Assembly: GCA_013152945.1 (NCBI GenBank)
Contig: JAADFL010000032.1
Span: forward strand, 1 to 40,986
Source of the DNA: Deltaproteobacteria bacterium
GTDB taxonomy: Bacteria; Myxococcota_A; JAADFL01
Reading direction: 5' to 3'
Length of the DNA: 40,986 nucleotides
The position numbers were made by a program, and so were the translations under genes. Below, one piece after another: positions 12,845-24,187 of this stretch. The notes beneath the pieces are model-generated. The model was given only the letters and a program-made list of their open reading frames with translations. It was not told the DNA's origin and ran no database searches. How positions within the stretch are numbered: the stretch's first letter is position 1; the number at the start of each line of letters is the position of its first letter.

Positions 12845-12874
12845 TAAATACCCGACTACTACCACGATAGTCAA
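12845..12874 (-). promoter_or_regulatory. Candidate rpsA promoter
   Basis: Reading the minus strand, TTGACT (12874-12869), an 18-nt spacer and TATTTA (12850-12845) form a sigma70-like promoter overlapping the kinase stop codon. It would give an rpsA leader of about 90 nt that includes a GCCG/CGGC hairpin with a T-rich loop near 12790-12805. S1 autoregulates in E. coli through its leader; a similar role here is speculation. Confidence 0.45.
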
Positions 12875-14679
12875 GGACTGCTTTCGGCTTTCTCGATTTG
12901 TTGTATGATATTTTTAATTTGTTGCGAGTCCCTGGCGCCGGGTTTCAATCGCAGGTATTTCTTGTAATAGGCCTTTGCCGTTTTCATTTTTTGTTGGCCC
13001 ATGTAACATGTGCCCAACTTCTTATATGCATTGGCCATGTTCTTGTTATACTTGATGGCCTTCCTGTAATTCATGATAGCCGCCTTTATCTCGCCTTGCA
13101 GAAATAGTTCATTACCTTTCTTATAATAAGCTATTGCTGATTTTATTCTGCTCGTACGGGCAATTCTTGAACCATGACGTTTTTTCTTCTTGTGCACGGA
13201 ACTTTTCGAGCCGGGGGGAGAAATATTTGCATTGGCATTGGAGGCATGGAGGTCTTGCTTGGATTCGGTTCCTTGCTTCCCGGAAGAGCCGGCCTGCTGT
13301 TGCGTGCCATTATTGACATGCCCGCTGTTCCTATTGTCGTTGGATGCAGTCGCATTTGTTTTTACATTTTTTATATCGTTTGCCGCGCCCGTATCAAGGG
13401 CCCGGTTTTTTTTGCCGGCAAAAACGAAATAGAGAACGACTACAAGAATTATGGCTGCGATACCCATTCCGGAGAAAATGAGCATCCTGTGTTTGCCTCC
13501 TTTGACCGGTACCATTACTGGTTCTTCCGCTGTCAAAGGCGGTGTAGAGGAAGGCGGGGCGGCTTTTACAGCAATAGGAGGCCGCCCTTGACCGTTCATT
13601 GTCGGGAAAGGCGTTTCAGTGGAATCCGGTACTCCATCTTGCCCGGTGTCTACTTGGGCAATCGGCTTTTTTGCCGCCGGCAAGGGAACAGGCTTGCTGG
13701 CCACCGGAGAACCTATTTTTATCGCCTCGAGAGCTTGTTCAAGTTCGGCCTTGAATTCCAGGGCCGATGATTGTCTCCTGTTCCTGTCTTTTTTCAGGGC
13801 CCTCATGCAAACCGTTTCCAAGGGACCTGGAACCTCCGGCCTGATCCTGGAAGGCGGGACCGGTGGTTCGAGCAGGTGTTTCGTGACGATTCCCATTGAT
13901 GTGGGCGCATGAAAGGGAATGTCCTTGGTAAGCATCTGGTAAAGAATTACACCCAAGCTATAGATGTCCGACCTTGAATCCAATGGTTCACCTTTGGCCT
14001 GCTCCGGACTCATGTACTCGGGAGTTCCACACACCACACCTGCCTTGGTGAGATTGGCAGCCGCAATTTCGTCTTCCTGCGGGTCCAGGACTTTTGCTAT
14101 GCCAAAATCCAGCACCTTGACGAAATCCTCGCCATCCCGTCGTTTTTCGATAAGGATGTTCTCGGGTTTGAGGTCCCTGTGAACGACCTTGTGTTCATGA
14201 GCTTCCGCCAAGGCACTACAGACTTGTGAGAGGATGTTGACTATCCTTTTCGCAGGCAAGGGGAATTCGTTTTCTATCAGTTCCCCGAGTTCAATGCCTT
14301 CGACGTATTCCATGGCCATGAAAAGACATCCGTCTTCAGCAGTGCCGAAATCTATGATGTTGATGCTGTTGGGGTGATTCAACCTGCTTGCAGCCCTGGC
14401 TTCCCTGTGAAAGCGCTTTGCCAAGTCCGGGTCGCCGACCATGTTCTGGTGGAGTATCTTAAGGCAGACTTTCTTGCCCAAGGATATCTGTTCGGCCCTG
14501 TACACCTTGCCCATGCCGCCTTGACCAATCAACTCGAGGACAAGGAAATTGTCTTTGATCTTTCGGCCGATATAGGGGTCGGCCGAAGGCTTTTTGGCTG
14601 CCTCGACATTTGCCCCGCACCTGGGACAGAAACGTATTCCCTCTTCGATATTGAAATTACATTGTGGACAGGTCGTCAC
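12871..14679 (-). CDS. Membrane Ser/Thr protein kinase with N-terminal zinc ribbon and C-terminal TPR
   Basis: Hanks-type kinase of 602 residues. Domains in order: zinc ribbon with CxxC pairs C4/C7 and C18/C21; kinase domain about 44-320 with glycine loop GQGGMGKV, K74, HRDLKPEN (catalytic D169), DFG 191-193 and the activation-segment end GTPEYMSPEQ; a Pro/Ser-rich linker; one TM helix (about 399-421); an Asn/Ser/Lys-rich segment; and TPR repeats at about 525-595. The TPRs would be extracytoplasmic if the kinase is cytoplasmic. All catalytic residues are present. The start is GTG 14679 with GGGAG 10 nt upstream. It is divergent from an FHA protein with the same zinc-ribbon start, suggesting a kinase and phosphothreonine-reader pair. 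Confidence 0.92.
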   Translation of the reverse strand: MTTCPQCNFNIEEGIRFCPRCGANVEAAKKPSADPYIGRKIKDNFLVLELIGQGGMGKVYRAEQISLGKKVCLKILHQNMVGDPDLAKRFHREARAASRLNHPNSINIIDFGTAEDGCLFMAMEYVEGIELGELIENEFPLPAKRIVNILSQVCSALAEAHEHKVVHRDLKPENILIEKRRDGEDFVKVLDFGIAKVLDPQEDEIAAANLTKAGVVCGTPEYMSPEQAKGEPLDSRSDIYSLGVILYQMLTKDIPFHAPTSMGIVTKHLLEPPVPPSRIRPEVPGPLETVCMRALKKDRNRRQSSALEFKAELEQALEAIKIGSPVASKPVPLPAAKKPIAQVDTGQDGVPDSTETPFPTMNGQGRPPIAVKAAPPSSTPPLTAEEPVMVPVKGGKHRMLIFSGMGIAAIILVVVLYFVFAGKKNRALDTGAANDIKNVKTNATASNDNRNSGHVNNGTQQQAGSSGKQGTESKQDLHASNANANISPPGSKSSVHKKKKRHGSRIARTSRIKSAIAYYKKGNELFLQGEIKAAIMNYRKAIKYNKNMANAYKKLGTCYMGQQKMKTAKAYYKKYLRLKPGARDSQQIKNIIQQIEKAESSP

Positions 14680-14958
14680 GCCGAATGTACTCCCTTAATG
14701 TCCAAGATTCGCCTTTCCTGCCGATGCCCGGAAAGCATGAAAGCAGTCTCTAAAAAAGTCAAGTTACTTACATCAACCACCATGGTTTCATCCATGGAAC
14801 ACATCTTTATATCCTTGTAGAACCGATCCTTCAACAAAAAATTCTTCTTACGTATTTCTCTACTTGACCGGTTGCCTCAGGTTCTGCTAATGACAAAGTT
14901 CAAACAGTTTTTTCAGTGCGTGGAGTTTGCACTGTAGCGTCGGAAAAGGGGTGTTTAG
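14680..14958. promoter_or_regulatory. Divergent intergenic region between kinase and FHA genes
   Basis: This 279-nt gap must hold the promoters of both divergent genes. I see no convincing coding sequence. The only structure noticed is a pair of CCATGG palindromes 6 nt apart (14780-14785 and 14792-14797), which could form a hairpin or a paired binding site. No unambiguous -35/-10 pair was assigned. Confidence 0.3.
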
Positions 14959-16005
14959 ATGATCACCTGCCCACAATGTGGAAAAGAAAATGCCGATAAC
15001 TTCAACTACTGCCTGGAATGCGGGGCGGAACTTGTTCCCAGGCAGCCTGCCGCGGAAACTCAACCAACTGGAACGGAACAGGCTGTACCGCCGGCTGACG
15101 AAGACTTTCAGGAGGTCGGCGAAGATTTTGTCGAGCCCATACCTCTGACTGAGGTTAAGAGCCCGCCTCCTAGGGAACAGGGCCAGGAACCAGGATCATC
15201 CGGTCCCGGCGCCGGGGAGCCTCCTCCCAAAATTCGTGCTTGTCCGGTTTGCGGCAACCATGTTCCGGAAGGCTTTCGTTTTTGCGGCAAATGCGGAGCA
15301 CCTATCAATGATGCAGGTACATCGCCCCAAGCCGCTCCGGCTTCAGAACCCGCGGGTCCCATGGGATATCTGGTGCTGATAGAGCCGGACGGCAGCGAAG
15401 GAGGGCAATATCCCCTGGAACAGGGAGAAACCGTCTGTGGGAGAATGGAAGGAAAGATTCTGTTTCTCGAAGACGAGTACTTATCGCCTAAACATGCTGT
15501 TTTCACCTTTGAGAACGGAAAGCTCGTTGTACAGGACGCAGGCAGCTTGAACGGTATTTTCTTCAGGATACAGGGGGAAGTAGTTATCGAACAGGGTGAC
15601 AGTTTCAGAATCGGCAAGCAGTTCCTCAAGTTCGAAGATTTGTCCCGTTTAGAGGTGGTGGCATCACCTGATGAGGGAGATGATACCGTGCTTTGGGGCA
15701 GTCCGGTGGGGGACATGTGGGGACGAGTCGTACAGATAATTGAGGGCGGACACCGTGGTAATGTTTACTTGCTCAACAAGGATGAGGTTGTCCTTGGAAG
15801 AGAAAAGGGAGATATTACATTTCCGTACGATGGCTTTGTATCGGGCAAACATGCGAAACTCTCCAATCGTGGGGGAAATTTTATATTGACCGACCTTGGA
15901 AGCAGCAATGGAACTTTTATTAGGCTCCGAAAGCCCAAGGAACTCAAGCAGAACGATCTTCTTCTGGTAGGCCAGCAACTTCTCCGGGTGGACCTGAAAG
16001 GATGA
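14959..16005 (+). CDS. Double zinc-ribbon, double FHA domain protein
   Basis: Soluble protein of 348 residues. Zinc ribbon 1 uses C4/C7 and C18/C21, and zinc ribbon 2 uses C95/C98 and C109/C112, separated by a Pro/Glu-rich linker. Two FHA domains follow: about 136-230 (VCGRMEG, LSPKHAVF, SLNGIF) and about 255-345 (VLGREKGD, VSGKHAKL, SSNGTF). FHA2 has the canonical Gly-Arg, Ser-x-x-His and Asn-Gly features of phosphothreonine recognition, while in FHA1 the serine is also kept (SPKH). Its first residues (TCPQCG) mirror those of the divergent kinase. The likely role is to read kinase phosphorylation; the zinc ribbons may mediate oligomerisation or binding. Neither partner is proven. Confidence 0.92.
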   Translation: MITCPQCGKENADNFNYCLECGAELVPRQPAAETQPTGTEQAVPPADEDFQEVGEDFVEPIPLTEVKSPPPREQGQEPGSSGPGAGEPPPKIRACPVCGNHVPEGFRFCGKCGAPINDAGTSPQAAPASEPAGPMGYLVLIEPDGSEGGQYPLEQGETVCGRMEGKILFLEDEYLSPKHAVFTFENGKLVVQDAGSLNGIFFRIQGEVVIEQGDSFRIGKQFLKFEDLSRLEVVASPDEGDDTVLWGSPVGDMWGRVVQIIEGGHRGNVYLLNKDEVVLGREKGDITFPYDGFVSGKHAKLSNRGGNFILTDLGSSNGTFIRLRKPKELKQNDLLLVGQQLLRVDLKG

Positions 16006-20986: not shown

Positions 20987-23900
20987 ATGATGAAATTTCG
21001 CTTGCTATTGCTTGAGGCTATGCTGGGTATAATTGGGGGAATGCTCCTAAGCGGGATGGGTATATACCTGGAGGCAGAGGGCGTCGGCTATTTTGCTGTT
21101 TTAACTGCAGGTGGGGTGCTGGGTTTTCTTCTGACTATTCTGTTCTATTTTTCGTATGCGGCTGTCCGTAAGAAATCACAAGACACTGTGTACGGCCGGG
21201 TACTGGATTCTGTTGCATCCGGTGATTTGACCGAAGGAGCCTTGCCTGCGGATTCGGGTGGTCTGGGAGACGAATTCCTTTGGAAACTGAGGGACATGGT
21301 TCTCAACTTGAGGCGTGTCGTGGGTAAAGTCCAGGCCGTAAGCGAGAGAGTGAAAGAAGTGTCCACCGAGGTCTCGGAGCGGTCCAGGAACCTCATGGAG
21401 GTTTCCAGGAGCCAGACTCGGATCACGGATGCCACTTTTTCCGCTGTTGAAGACATGTTCGAATCTTTGCAAAAGGTCGGCGCGAGTTTGTCGAAGATAG
21501 ATGATTTGGCAATGGATACATCGACGGAATTGGACGACATGCTCCATTCGATAGACGAGGTCGATCGCGTATTGGGAGAATTATCCGACTTTGTGGCGGA
21601 ATCTGCGACAGCCGTGCAGGAGATGAACGCCAATATTGCACAGGTGGCGGACAATGCGAAAGACTTGAACATGGTGACTGAAGAAACCGAGGTCTCCATG
21701 AACGCCATGGACAGGGATATCGCTTCGGTTGAAAAGAGTGCGAGTGAGGCTGCCGATCTGTCCGTAAGAACCGCTGTTCAAGCCAATGAAGGCAGGGAGG
21801 TGATAAAGGATGCCCTGGACAGCATGAGCAAGGTGGCCCAGGCTGTGGCAGAGGTGAGTGAAAAGATGGGCAACCTGGACAAGCGTTCGGAAGAAATAGG
21901 CTCAATCGTTGGTATGATATCCAACATTGCCGATCAGACCAACCTGCTTGCCTTGAACGCCTCGATAATTGCCGCCCAGGCTGGAGAAAGGGGCCGGGGG
22001 TTTGCTGTGGTTGCCTCGGAAATCAGGTCCCTGTCGGAGCGAACCAGGAGATCCACAACCGATGTGGCGGACCTCGTTGAGAGTGTACAGGGCGAAATTG
22101 CAGAGGCCGTGGACAAACTGGAAGAGAGCAACATTATTGCAGGCAAGGGCACCGAGCTGGGTGCTGCGGCGGAACAGGCCTTGATGGAGATCCTGGAACA
22201 GACCAAGGAGGCGTCGGAACAAATGAGTTCCATAGCCTCTGCAACCAAGAGACAGGCGGAGTCAAGCAAGAAAATCACAAAGGCTACCAGGCAGGTCGGT
22301 GAGATGGTCGGCCAGGTAAGCACGGCTGCTCTTGAACAGGCGAAGACGAGTGCCGAGATTGCAAAAAAGGCGAGACTCCTGGAGGAACTTTCCTTAAAGG
22401 CCAAGGGAGACGTAAGCGAACAAGCGAACGGTTCCAGGGCCATCAGGGAATCCATGAAAAGGGTGACAGGCCTACTTGAAGATGTTCAAAAGGCCAGCCA
22501 TGAGCTTTCCGAAGGAGGAGATAGAGTCAGAGTCGCCATGGGTGAGATACAGCAACAGACCAGGGATGTGTCCTCGAGTTCCACTGCCTTGTCCAATGCA
22601 GTCGACCAGTTGAAATTGGAGGCCATACTTCTTGATGATGAAGTGCACAAGTTCAAGCTTCCGGTCGCCAGCCGGGGCGGGACCGTCCGGATGGGTATCA
22701 TCGAACGCGAGGTCGTTGAGGCAACCCGTGGGCTCGATCCTGCACATATGACCAGCCTGTCGCAGGTGGAAGTATTGTCGTGTCTGTACGATGGGCTTGT
22801 GGCATGGGGCGAGGCCATGGAACTGGTTCCGGCCTTGGCTGAGAACTGGGAAGTCGGGGAGGACGGCAGGGTCTACCGTTTCAAGTTGAGGACAGATGTT
22901 TCTTTCCAGAACGGCCGGGACTTGACTGCCTGGGATGTCAAGTTTTCCTTTCAACGAACACTTGACCCAAAGAATGATTCACCGAACTCCTGGATCTTTA
23001 CCGACCTGGAAGGGGCCGATGAATTCGCTTCCGGAAGATCCGAGGAAGTTTCAGGTTTGAGTGTGCTCGGGGACCATGAAATTGAAATACGATTGAAAAG
23101 CCCGCGTTCTTTCTTTCTCTATGCCCTGACCATGGCCGGTGCGTACATTGTTTCCAGTAAAGGCCGGGGTATCGACCCGCAGGTGTACTCGGGAACAGGA
23201 CCATATAAGCCGGCCGGCTATGAAAAGGGCAAAGTAATCAAGATGGAAAAGAACCAGAATTATTTCAGGCAGGACAGGCCGCACCTCGATTTCATCGAGT
23301 TCAGATCCGGATTTCCGGACAGGAATGCCATGCTGGCTGCATTGCGACAGGGTGACATCGATATTTCTCTCGACCTGCCTGCAGGTTTCAAACTTGATCC
23401 TACGGATAACATGGGCCGACTGAGCATTGTCAGCATGGTGCAACTCTCCACGCACATGTTCGGTTTTCAATGCCAGACTCCACCGTTCAACGACAAGAGG
23501 GTCAGGCAGGCTCTCAAGTTGCTGATGGATGCTTCCGCATATATGGAAAAAAGGGGAGGGACGAGCATAAGGGCAAGGGGCATTATTCCACCGGGTATGC
23601 TGGGTTATGATGCCGAGCGCGAACCGTCCAGAATGGATATTCCGAAGGCCAGGAAGCTCTTGAGGGAAGCCGGGATAAACGAAGGATCGGTAATCACGTT
23701 TTGGAACAGGAACACGGATACGGGTGTAAAGGAAGAGATGGATGCTCTCTTCGGATCGTTCAGTGAGGCCGGCCTTGAACTCGAAATAATAGATGTGGAT
23801 GCCCCGGAGTTCTGGAAGTTGATGAGACAGGGCAGGTTGCCATTCTTCCGCACGACCTGGATAGCGGACTATCCGGACCCTGACATGTTTCTCTACTTCC

Positions 23901-24187
23901 TTTGCAACTCCAAGGCTCAAAACCTTTACAACATAGGTTACGTGAACGACAAGGTTGATGAGTTGACGGGCAGGGCACGCGAAATTCTGGACAAGGATGT
24001 AAGAGCTGCCATGTACAGGGAAGCTGAAGATCTGATCCAGGAGGATACACCTTTCATTCCAATATACCATGACAGGGCATTTGCAGCACACAAACCGGAG
24101 ATACACGGCTGCCAGTTATACTTGGCACCGCCTCCCATAAGGCTTTACGAAATCTGGCTTTCGGAATTTACAGGCCGGCAGCGTTAG
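20987..24187 (+). CDS. Fusion of chemoreceptor signalling domain and family-5 peptide/solute-binding protein
   Basis: Single frame of 1066 residues. Order: two TM helices with a very short periplasmic loop (about 4-27 and 34-58), a HAMP-like stretch (about 65-135), a long MCP coiled coil with its conserved tip near 306-355 (SNIADQTNLLALNAS, RGRGFAVVASEIRSLSERT), and from about 560 to the end an SBP_bac_5 (OppA/DppA-type) domain (AENWEVGEDGRVYRFKLR, NGRDLTAWDVKFSF, TGPYKPAGYEKG). No TM segment separates the two halves, so by standard topology the binding protein would lie in the cytoplasm with the signalling coil, the reverse of a normal receptor with a periplasmic sensor. No chemotaxis genes or ABC transporter genes are adjacent. 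Domain identities are firm; function is unknown. Confidence 0.92.
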   Translation: MMKFRLLLLEAMLGIIGGMLLSGMGIYLEAEGVGYFAVLTAGGVLGFLLTILFYFSYAAVRKKSQDTVYGRVLDSVASGDLTEGALPADSGGLGDEFLWKLRDMVLNLRRVVGKVQAVSERVKEVSTEVSERSRNLMEVSRSQTRITDATFSAVEDMFESLQKVGASLSKIDDLAMDTSTELDDMLHSIDEVDRVLGELSDFVAESATAVQEMNANIAQVADNAKDLNMVTEETEVSMNAMDRDIASVEKSASEAADLSVRTAVQANEGREVIKDALDSMSKVAQAVAEVSEKMGNLDKRSEEIGSIVGMISNIADQTNLLALNASIIAAQAGERGRGFAVVASEIRSLSERTRRSTTDVADLVESVQGEIAEAVDKLEESNIIAGKGTELGAAAEQALMEILEQTKEASEQMSSIASATKRQAESSKKITKATRQVGEMVGQVSTAALEQAKTSAEIAKKARLLEELSLKAKGDVSEQANGSRAIRESMKRVTGLLEDVQKASHELSEGGDRVRVAMGEIQQQTRDVSSSSTALSNAVDQLKLEAILLDDEVHKFKLPVASRGGTVRMGIIEREVVEATRGLDPAHMTSLSQVEVLSCLYDGLVAWGEAMELVPALAENWEVGEDGRVYRFKLRTDVSFQNGRDLTAWDVKFSFQRTLDPKNDSPNSWIFTDLEGADEFASGRSEEVSGLSVLGDHEIEIRLKSPRSFFLYALTMAGAYIVSSKGRGIDPQVYSGTGPYKPAGYEKGKVIKMEKNQNYFRQDRPHLDFIEFRSGFPDRNAMLAALRQGDIDISLDLPAGFKLDPTDNMGRLSIVSMVQLSTHMFGFQCQTPPFNDKRVRQALKLLMDASAYMEKRGGTSIRARGIIPPGMLGYDAEREPSRMDIPKARKLLREAGINEGSVITFWNRNTDTGVKEEMDALFGSFSEAGLELEIIDVDAPEFWKLMRQGRLPFFRTTWIADYPDPDMFLYFLCNSKAQNLYNIGYVNDKVDELTGRAREILDKDVRAAMYREAEDLIQEDTPFIPIYHDRAFAAHKPEIHGCQLYLAPPPIRLYEIWLSEFTGRQR

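Follow-up and report, generated by a model that had tools for sequence, protein, structure and literature searches.

A predicted membrane-anchored chemoreceptor carrying a peptide-binding protein domain, probably cytosolic, behind its signaling coil

Solute-binding proteins (SBPs) are usually regarded as extracytoplasmic, and the locus described here raises the question of what one of them is doing behind the signaling coil of a chemoreceptor (MCP), and on which side of the membrane it lies. The window, i.e., the whole stretch of DNA analyzed, is the 40,986-nucleotide contig C32 of a 4.84-Mb metagenome-assembled genome (MAG; 218 contigs, approximately 94% complete) of a deltaproteobacterium placed in Myxococcota_A; the relatives with which it was compared share only the phylum. 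The sequence is best read as a class III-like chemoreceptor whose sensor, a domain captured from a peptide SBP, sits at the C-terminus in the cytosol. We put at roughly 60% the probability of this reading, in which a peptide-binding protein that once worked in the periplasm has been joined in frame to the end of the signaling coil of a membrane-anchored receptor, stays in the cytoplasm and serves as its sensor. The sequence itself establishes the domain order, the full length of the domains, the absence of any transmembrane (TM) segment or export signal ahead of the SBP, and a join that falls at natural domain borders.

Domain architecture of the fusion protein

The features of the gene are as follows.

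20987-24187, + strand: complete ORF of 1066 amino acids, membrane hairpin, MCP signaling coil and SBP_bac_5 (frame and Pfam)
21008-21070, + strand: TM helix 1, residues ~8-28 (hydropathy)
21086-21163, + strand: TM helix 2, residues ~34-59, followed by RKK (hydropathy and sequence)
21164-21316, + strand: residues 60-110, HAMP-like by alignment with L070 and others, without a Pfam HAMP match
21317-22660, + strand: coiled coil of the MCP, residues 111-558, reaching the natural C-terminus (Pfam and alignment)
21839-22303, + strand: Pfam MCPsignal, residues 285-439 (Pfam)
21917-22021, + strand: conserved hairpin tip ADQTNLLALNASIIAAQAGERGRGFAVVASE (alignment of MCPs)
22661-22711, + strand: linker PVASRGGTVRMGIIERE, residues 559-575, from the MCP end to the mature SBP start, without a signal peptide (alignments and frame check)
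22712-24184, + strand: SBP_bac_5 domain, residues 576-1066, with the Pfam core at 22820-23917 (Pfam and structure relatives)
23708-23710, + strand: R908, aligned with DppA R383 (alignment; gap just before R908)
23867-23869, + strand: D961 in WIADYPDP, aligned with DppA D436 (alignment)

The original prediction described a single unbroken frame encoding two N-terminal TM helices, a complete MCP coil with its conserved tip, and a full family 5 solute-binding domain, and each of these elements holds. The 1066-codon frame starts with ATG and is open from end to end without interruption, and hydropathy places both helices at the N-terminus. Aligned against other MCPs from this genome and phylum, residues 1-558 make up a whole receptor, within which MCPsignal (PF00015) is matched with an E-value of 8e-43 and 146.7 bits against a cut-off of 34.6. 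The SBP_bac_5 match (residues 612-977; E-value 1.4e-80, 271.6 bits) covers positions 1-365 of the 368 in the profile. Relatives of solved structure are the peptide-binding proteins of ABC importers for the C-terminal part (8upi at 6e-56, 3zs6 and 1dpp) and the cytoplasmic domains of chemoreceptors for the middle part. The hairpin tip is conserved with MCPs of the phylum and is of the same type as that of the genome's other full-length MCP. In the adaptation helices there is one strict match to the methylation site consensus (TAALEQAKTS, residue 446), together with two weaker patterns.

A HAMP-like stretch had also been proposed; residues 60-110 do resemble HAMP, but only when aligned with MCPs that have a HAMP, among them the genome's own, and no Pfam HAMP match is found in the 1066-residue protein even at E<10. 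Pfam recognizes only MCPsignal and SBP_bac_5, and the N-terminal helix-turn-helix (HTH) DNA-binding domain of SgrR is absent. Structure prediction from three sequences gave a mean pLDDT of 33.8, which is too low to use.

The join between the MCP and SBP domains

The MCP part ends as other MCPs do, with LDDEVHKFKL, and then continues, where MCPs of the same genome and phylum terminate at LDEEVGRFSL or LQKEVIRFKV. From residue ~563 (RGGTVRMG..LDPAH), the alignment matches the mature start of exported SBPs (RGGTLRMA..); unlike those proteins, the fusion has no signal peptide or lipobox upstream of the SBP domain. No signal peptide, lipobox or TM helix is present at the join in any frame. A frameshift or a missed start of an SBP gene can be ruled out as an explanation because the other two + strand frames are full of stops and contain no signal peptide. 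In the frame itself, none of the possible starts around the join, at residues 553, 569 and 588, precedes a hydrophobic signal. Hydropathy shows nothing between residues 540 and 575, which rules out a missed TM segment there and bears out the claim that no membrane segment separates the two domains; a frameshift or missed TM segment near the join, named in the original prediction as fatal to it, was thus sought by frame check and hydropathy and not found. Codon usage is alike across the join, with r=0.81 between the two halves and 0.81-0.82 to the neighboring genes, and position-specific GC is similar on both sides. The join looks like an in-frame fusion accompanied by loss of the export signal.

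Topology and side of the membrane

Only two TM segments are detected by hydropathy; beyond residue 70, no 19-residue window has a Kyte-Doolittle mean above 1.13, a value reached within the SBP fold. The two helices are separated by an acidic loop (EAEG) of approximately five residues, and RKK follows the second. Read by the positive-inside rule, these charges strongly suggest an N-in/C-in hairpin that would leave both coil and SBP in the cytosol. From the charge distribution, together with the intact CheA/CheW/CheR/CheB cluster of the genome, the coil is expected in the cytoplasm and hence the SBP as well. The proposal that binding domain and signaling coil lie on one side of the membrane is supported, there being no TM segment or export signal between them, and the cytoplasmic option that it offered gains from the N-in/C-in hairpin, the missing export signal, the presence of CheA and CheW in the genome, and a sister clade that is fused to a kinase and lacks TM segments (below). 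Its other option, inverted insertion, finds no support; it contradicts the charge pattern and would separate the coil from CheA.

There is no periplasmic ligand-binding domain between TM1 and TM2, as there would be in class I. The class III feature of a membrane anchor without a periplasmic domain is present, in the form of the two-helix hairpin; the class III feature of a sensor before the HAMP/signaling domain is absent, as the SBP comes after the MCP. Hairpin-type MCPs without a periplasmic domain are found in relatives within the phylum as well (L005, L006). Since the receptor has no periplasmic sensor, the SBP would take its place.

The same genome encodes a further protein in which an SBP is fused to a cytoplasmic domain (L091 7330-9891, - strand; G000:C44). 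This single chain consists of a MalK-type ATPase, one TM segment and SBP_bac_1, adjoins MalF/MalG-like permeases, and has its ATPase inside and its binding protein outside, the two being separated by the TM helix VAVILLLALFAGLVYF. It provides a same-genome control: where the SBP must work outside, a TM helix is present, and the MCP-SBP fusion has none.

Relatives of the SBP domain and its binding pocket

In a phylogenetic tree of 32 SBP_bac_5 domains, the MCP-fused domain groups with two domains of L056, a single protein from a distant relative, with support of 99/98 and apart from exported SBPs. A second tree of 36 domains, for which eleven SBPs were added and several long branches removed, recovered the same clade with support of 99/99. 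This sister relationship appears well supported though not beyond doubt, as the SBP branches are long. L056 (1283-7093; G215:C43) is a protein of ~1936 amino acids comprising a Ser/Thr kinase, AAA_16 and two C-terminal SBP_bac_5 domains, with no credible TM segment. A colinear protein is encoded in a second genome of the same genus (L138 1416-7226; G455:C264), which shows the kinase-AAA_16-SBP_bac_5 fusion to be genuine, and a fragment occurs in a third genome of the family. L056 and L138 look like a second case of a cytosolic SBP_bac_5 on a signaling protein.

The MCP-fused SBP domain is 26% identical to DppA over 516 aligned columns. In DppA, R383 holds the carboxylate of the dipeptide and D436 its amino group (PMC12136057). 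D961 aligns with D436 and is nearly invariant in the family alignment; R908 aligns with R383, although this match depends on an adjacent gap and is less secure than that of D961.

Chemotaxis and transport genes of the genome

The genome has three MCP-domain genes and one complete Che cluster (G000:C22), in the order CheY-CheA-CheW-CheW-HEAT-CheR-CheB-CheY; the HEAT-repeat protein between CheW and CheR is 681 residues long (L071 4432-6477). FliG is present, as are five PilT-family genes above the cut-off. FliG is seemingly split over two frames near its C-terminus (G000:C155:765-1425), with another FliG_C piece on C98, possibly through a sequencing error or contig break. Elsewhere, a short TM protein with a partial MCP domain adjoins a CheA-like protein with Hpt and HATPase, in which Pfam detects no CheW domain (L077 6644-9721; G000:C43).

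There are two SBP_bac_5 genes, the MCP fusion and an exported-looking gene on C119. No Opp/Dpp permease was recognized in the ~94% complete genome, the ABC permease matches being MalF/MalG-like, iron/phosphonate-like and TupB-like (tungstate). The fusion therefore has neither the export signal or lipobox nor the cognate Opp/Dpp permease that mark an ABC importer SBP, and the suggestion that it might partner with a permease is unsupported at this level of completeness.

Distribution of the architecture

No second MCP-SBP_bac_5 fusion was found with the whole protein in 95 genomes of the phylum, with a junction fragment in 377 genomes of the phylum, in 90 genomes of one class, in plasmids, or in scans of genome contigs and viral contigs, and the literature searched did not describe an MCP bearing a C-terminal SBP_bac_5. 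The search for homologs with the same domain order, which the original prediction had proposed, thus leaves the architecture a singleton from one MAG. An Allorhizobium plasmid match of 69% resolved into two neighboring genes, one encoding an exported SBP and the other an MCP whose N-terminal region is globin-like. Long SBP frames in relatives (L052, L054, L060, L062, L064, L066 and L068) contain only SBP_bac_5 by Pfam, bar one sub-threshold match, and seem to be ordinary exported SBPs whose frames run on in GC-rich DNA. A 1164-residue Leptolinea protein has a TM segment between a peptidase and the SBP and is not cytosolic.

That protein (L133 2805-6299, - strand; Leptolinea plasmid AP024711.1) is annotated as hypothetical and comprises Peptidase_MA_2, the TM segment and then SBP_bac_5; it may be a protease at the cell surface that is coupled to a peptide binder. 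In one family, two genomes encode an OppC-type permease and SBP_bac_5 in one frame (L053 2391-5261, - strand; L059 2122-4638, + strand).

Proposed mechanism and alternative explanations

The SBP domain probably acts as the sensor of the receptor for a ligand in the cytosol, with di- or oligopeptides as the likeliest candidates. Its movement between open and closed states would be passed through the 17-residue linker to the membrane-proximal end of the coil, which is where the C-terminus of a receptor sits, and the resulting change in the coil would set the activity of the genome's CheA, with flagella or type IV pili as the output. Several points weigh against this reading: the fusion comes from a single genome and a fragmented MAG and hence allows no conservation argument, no HAMP is recognized, the R908 match is gap-dependent, the branches of the SBP trees are long, and the mean pLDDT is 33.8.

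The fragmentation into 218 contigs and the lack of a second genome with the fusion are what speak for an assembly artifact, in which an MCP gene and an SBP gene were wrongly joined. We regard this as very unlikely, as the join is in frame and falls exactly where the MCP ends and the mature SBP begins, both natural borders, the SBP signal peptide is missing, GC and codon usage are uniform across the join, and only one other SBP_bac_5 gene exists in the genome; an artifactual join at both borders would be a strange coincidence. There is a slim chance that the SBP is a cytosolic tether linking the receptor to an ABC permease, such that it reports transport rather than free cytosolic ligand. The position of a receptor C-terminus at the membrane-proximal end of the coil would bring it near a possible permease, but no Opp/Dpp-type permease was found, and SBPs dock with permeases on the periplasmic face.

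A periplasmic location of the SBP, whether because the whole protein is inserted the other way round or because an internal start yields a C-terminal part that is exported on its own, would agree with the normally extracytoplasmic location of SBP_bac_5 proteins (PMC9602780). It is nevertheless highly improbable: the charges favor N-in/C-in, the internal starts at residues 553, 569 and 588 lack a hydrophobic signal, an inverted MCP coil would be unable to meet CheA, and the genome uses a TM helix in its MalK-SBP fusion. A cytosolic SBP might also sense no small ligand at all, and serve as a docking or chaperone-like module or be a tolerated, neutral C-terminal extension. Such a role would suit a singleton architecture with no conservation data, and cytosolic proteins of other functions occur among SBP Pfam matches (PMC9602780), but the full length of the domain, the conserved Asp of the DppA pocket and the attachment of the sister domains likewise to a signaling protein make it somewhat unlikely.

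Comparison with known systems

In E. coli dipeptide chemotaxis, a free-standing DppA in the periplasm contacts the periplasmic domain of Tap. The fusion resembles this system in its family 5 SBP fold, in the pocket Asp (D961), with R908 a less secure counterpart of the Arg, and in the pairing of an SBP with a chemoreceptor (DppA structure, PMC12136057), but its SBP is joined to the receptor in one chain. Class III chemoreceptors (IIIc/IIIm, PMC8396549) are likewise membrane-anchored, with a cytoplasmic signaling coil and no periplasmic sensor; their sensor precedes the signaling domain, being either membrane-embedded or situated between membrane and HAMP/signaling domain, whereas here the SBP follows the signaling domain. 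The zinc-binding CZB domain of Tlp6 and TlpD is a C-terminal sensor behind the MCP coil (PMC9665402), as the SBP is here, but those receptors are soluble and their sensor is small.

SBP Pfam domains are known as sensors in cytosolic signaling proteins (PMC9602780). In SgrR/DsvR, a C-terminal SBP_bac_5 acts as a sensor inside the cell (PMC13060122), with an N-terminal HTH in place of the MCP; E. coli SgrR is 18% identical to the MCP-fused SBP domain and is without the peptide-type Asp motif in the alignment. L056 and L138 come from the same phylum and share the C-terminal SBP_bac_5, with no TM segment and sister SBP domains in both trees, but have two SBP copies and, in place of the MCP, a kinase as their output. 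Cytosolic SBP_bac_5 sensors and C-terminal chemoreceptor sensors are therefore already known, and an MCP with a C-terminal SBP_bac_5 appears to be new, in one genome.

If the SBP is inside, the receptor would report the internal nutrient state, and the fusion offers a ready construct for asking how an MCP coil responds when a Venus flytrap closes at its C-terminal end. Evenly balanced, in our judgment, is the more specific proposal of a chemoreceptor for intracellular peptides whose SBP_bac_5 domain is part of a small clade that has gone from the periplasm to cytosolic sensing, on a chemoreceptor and a Ser/Thr kinase, in this phylum. Together, the MCP and kinase fusions suggest that peptide SBPs can move into the cytosol as sensors beyond SgrR.

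Elsewhere in the window (12871-16005), a zinc-ribbon Ser/Thr kinase with TPRs adjoins a zinc-ribbon FHA protein on the opposite strand.
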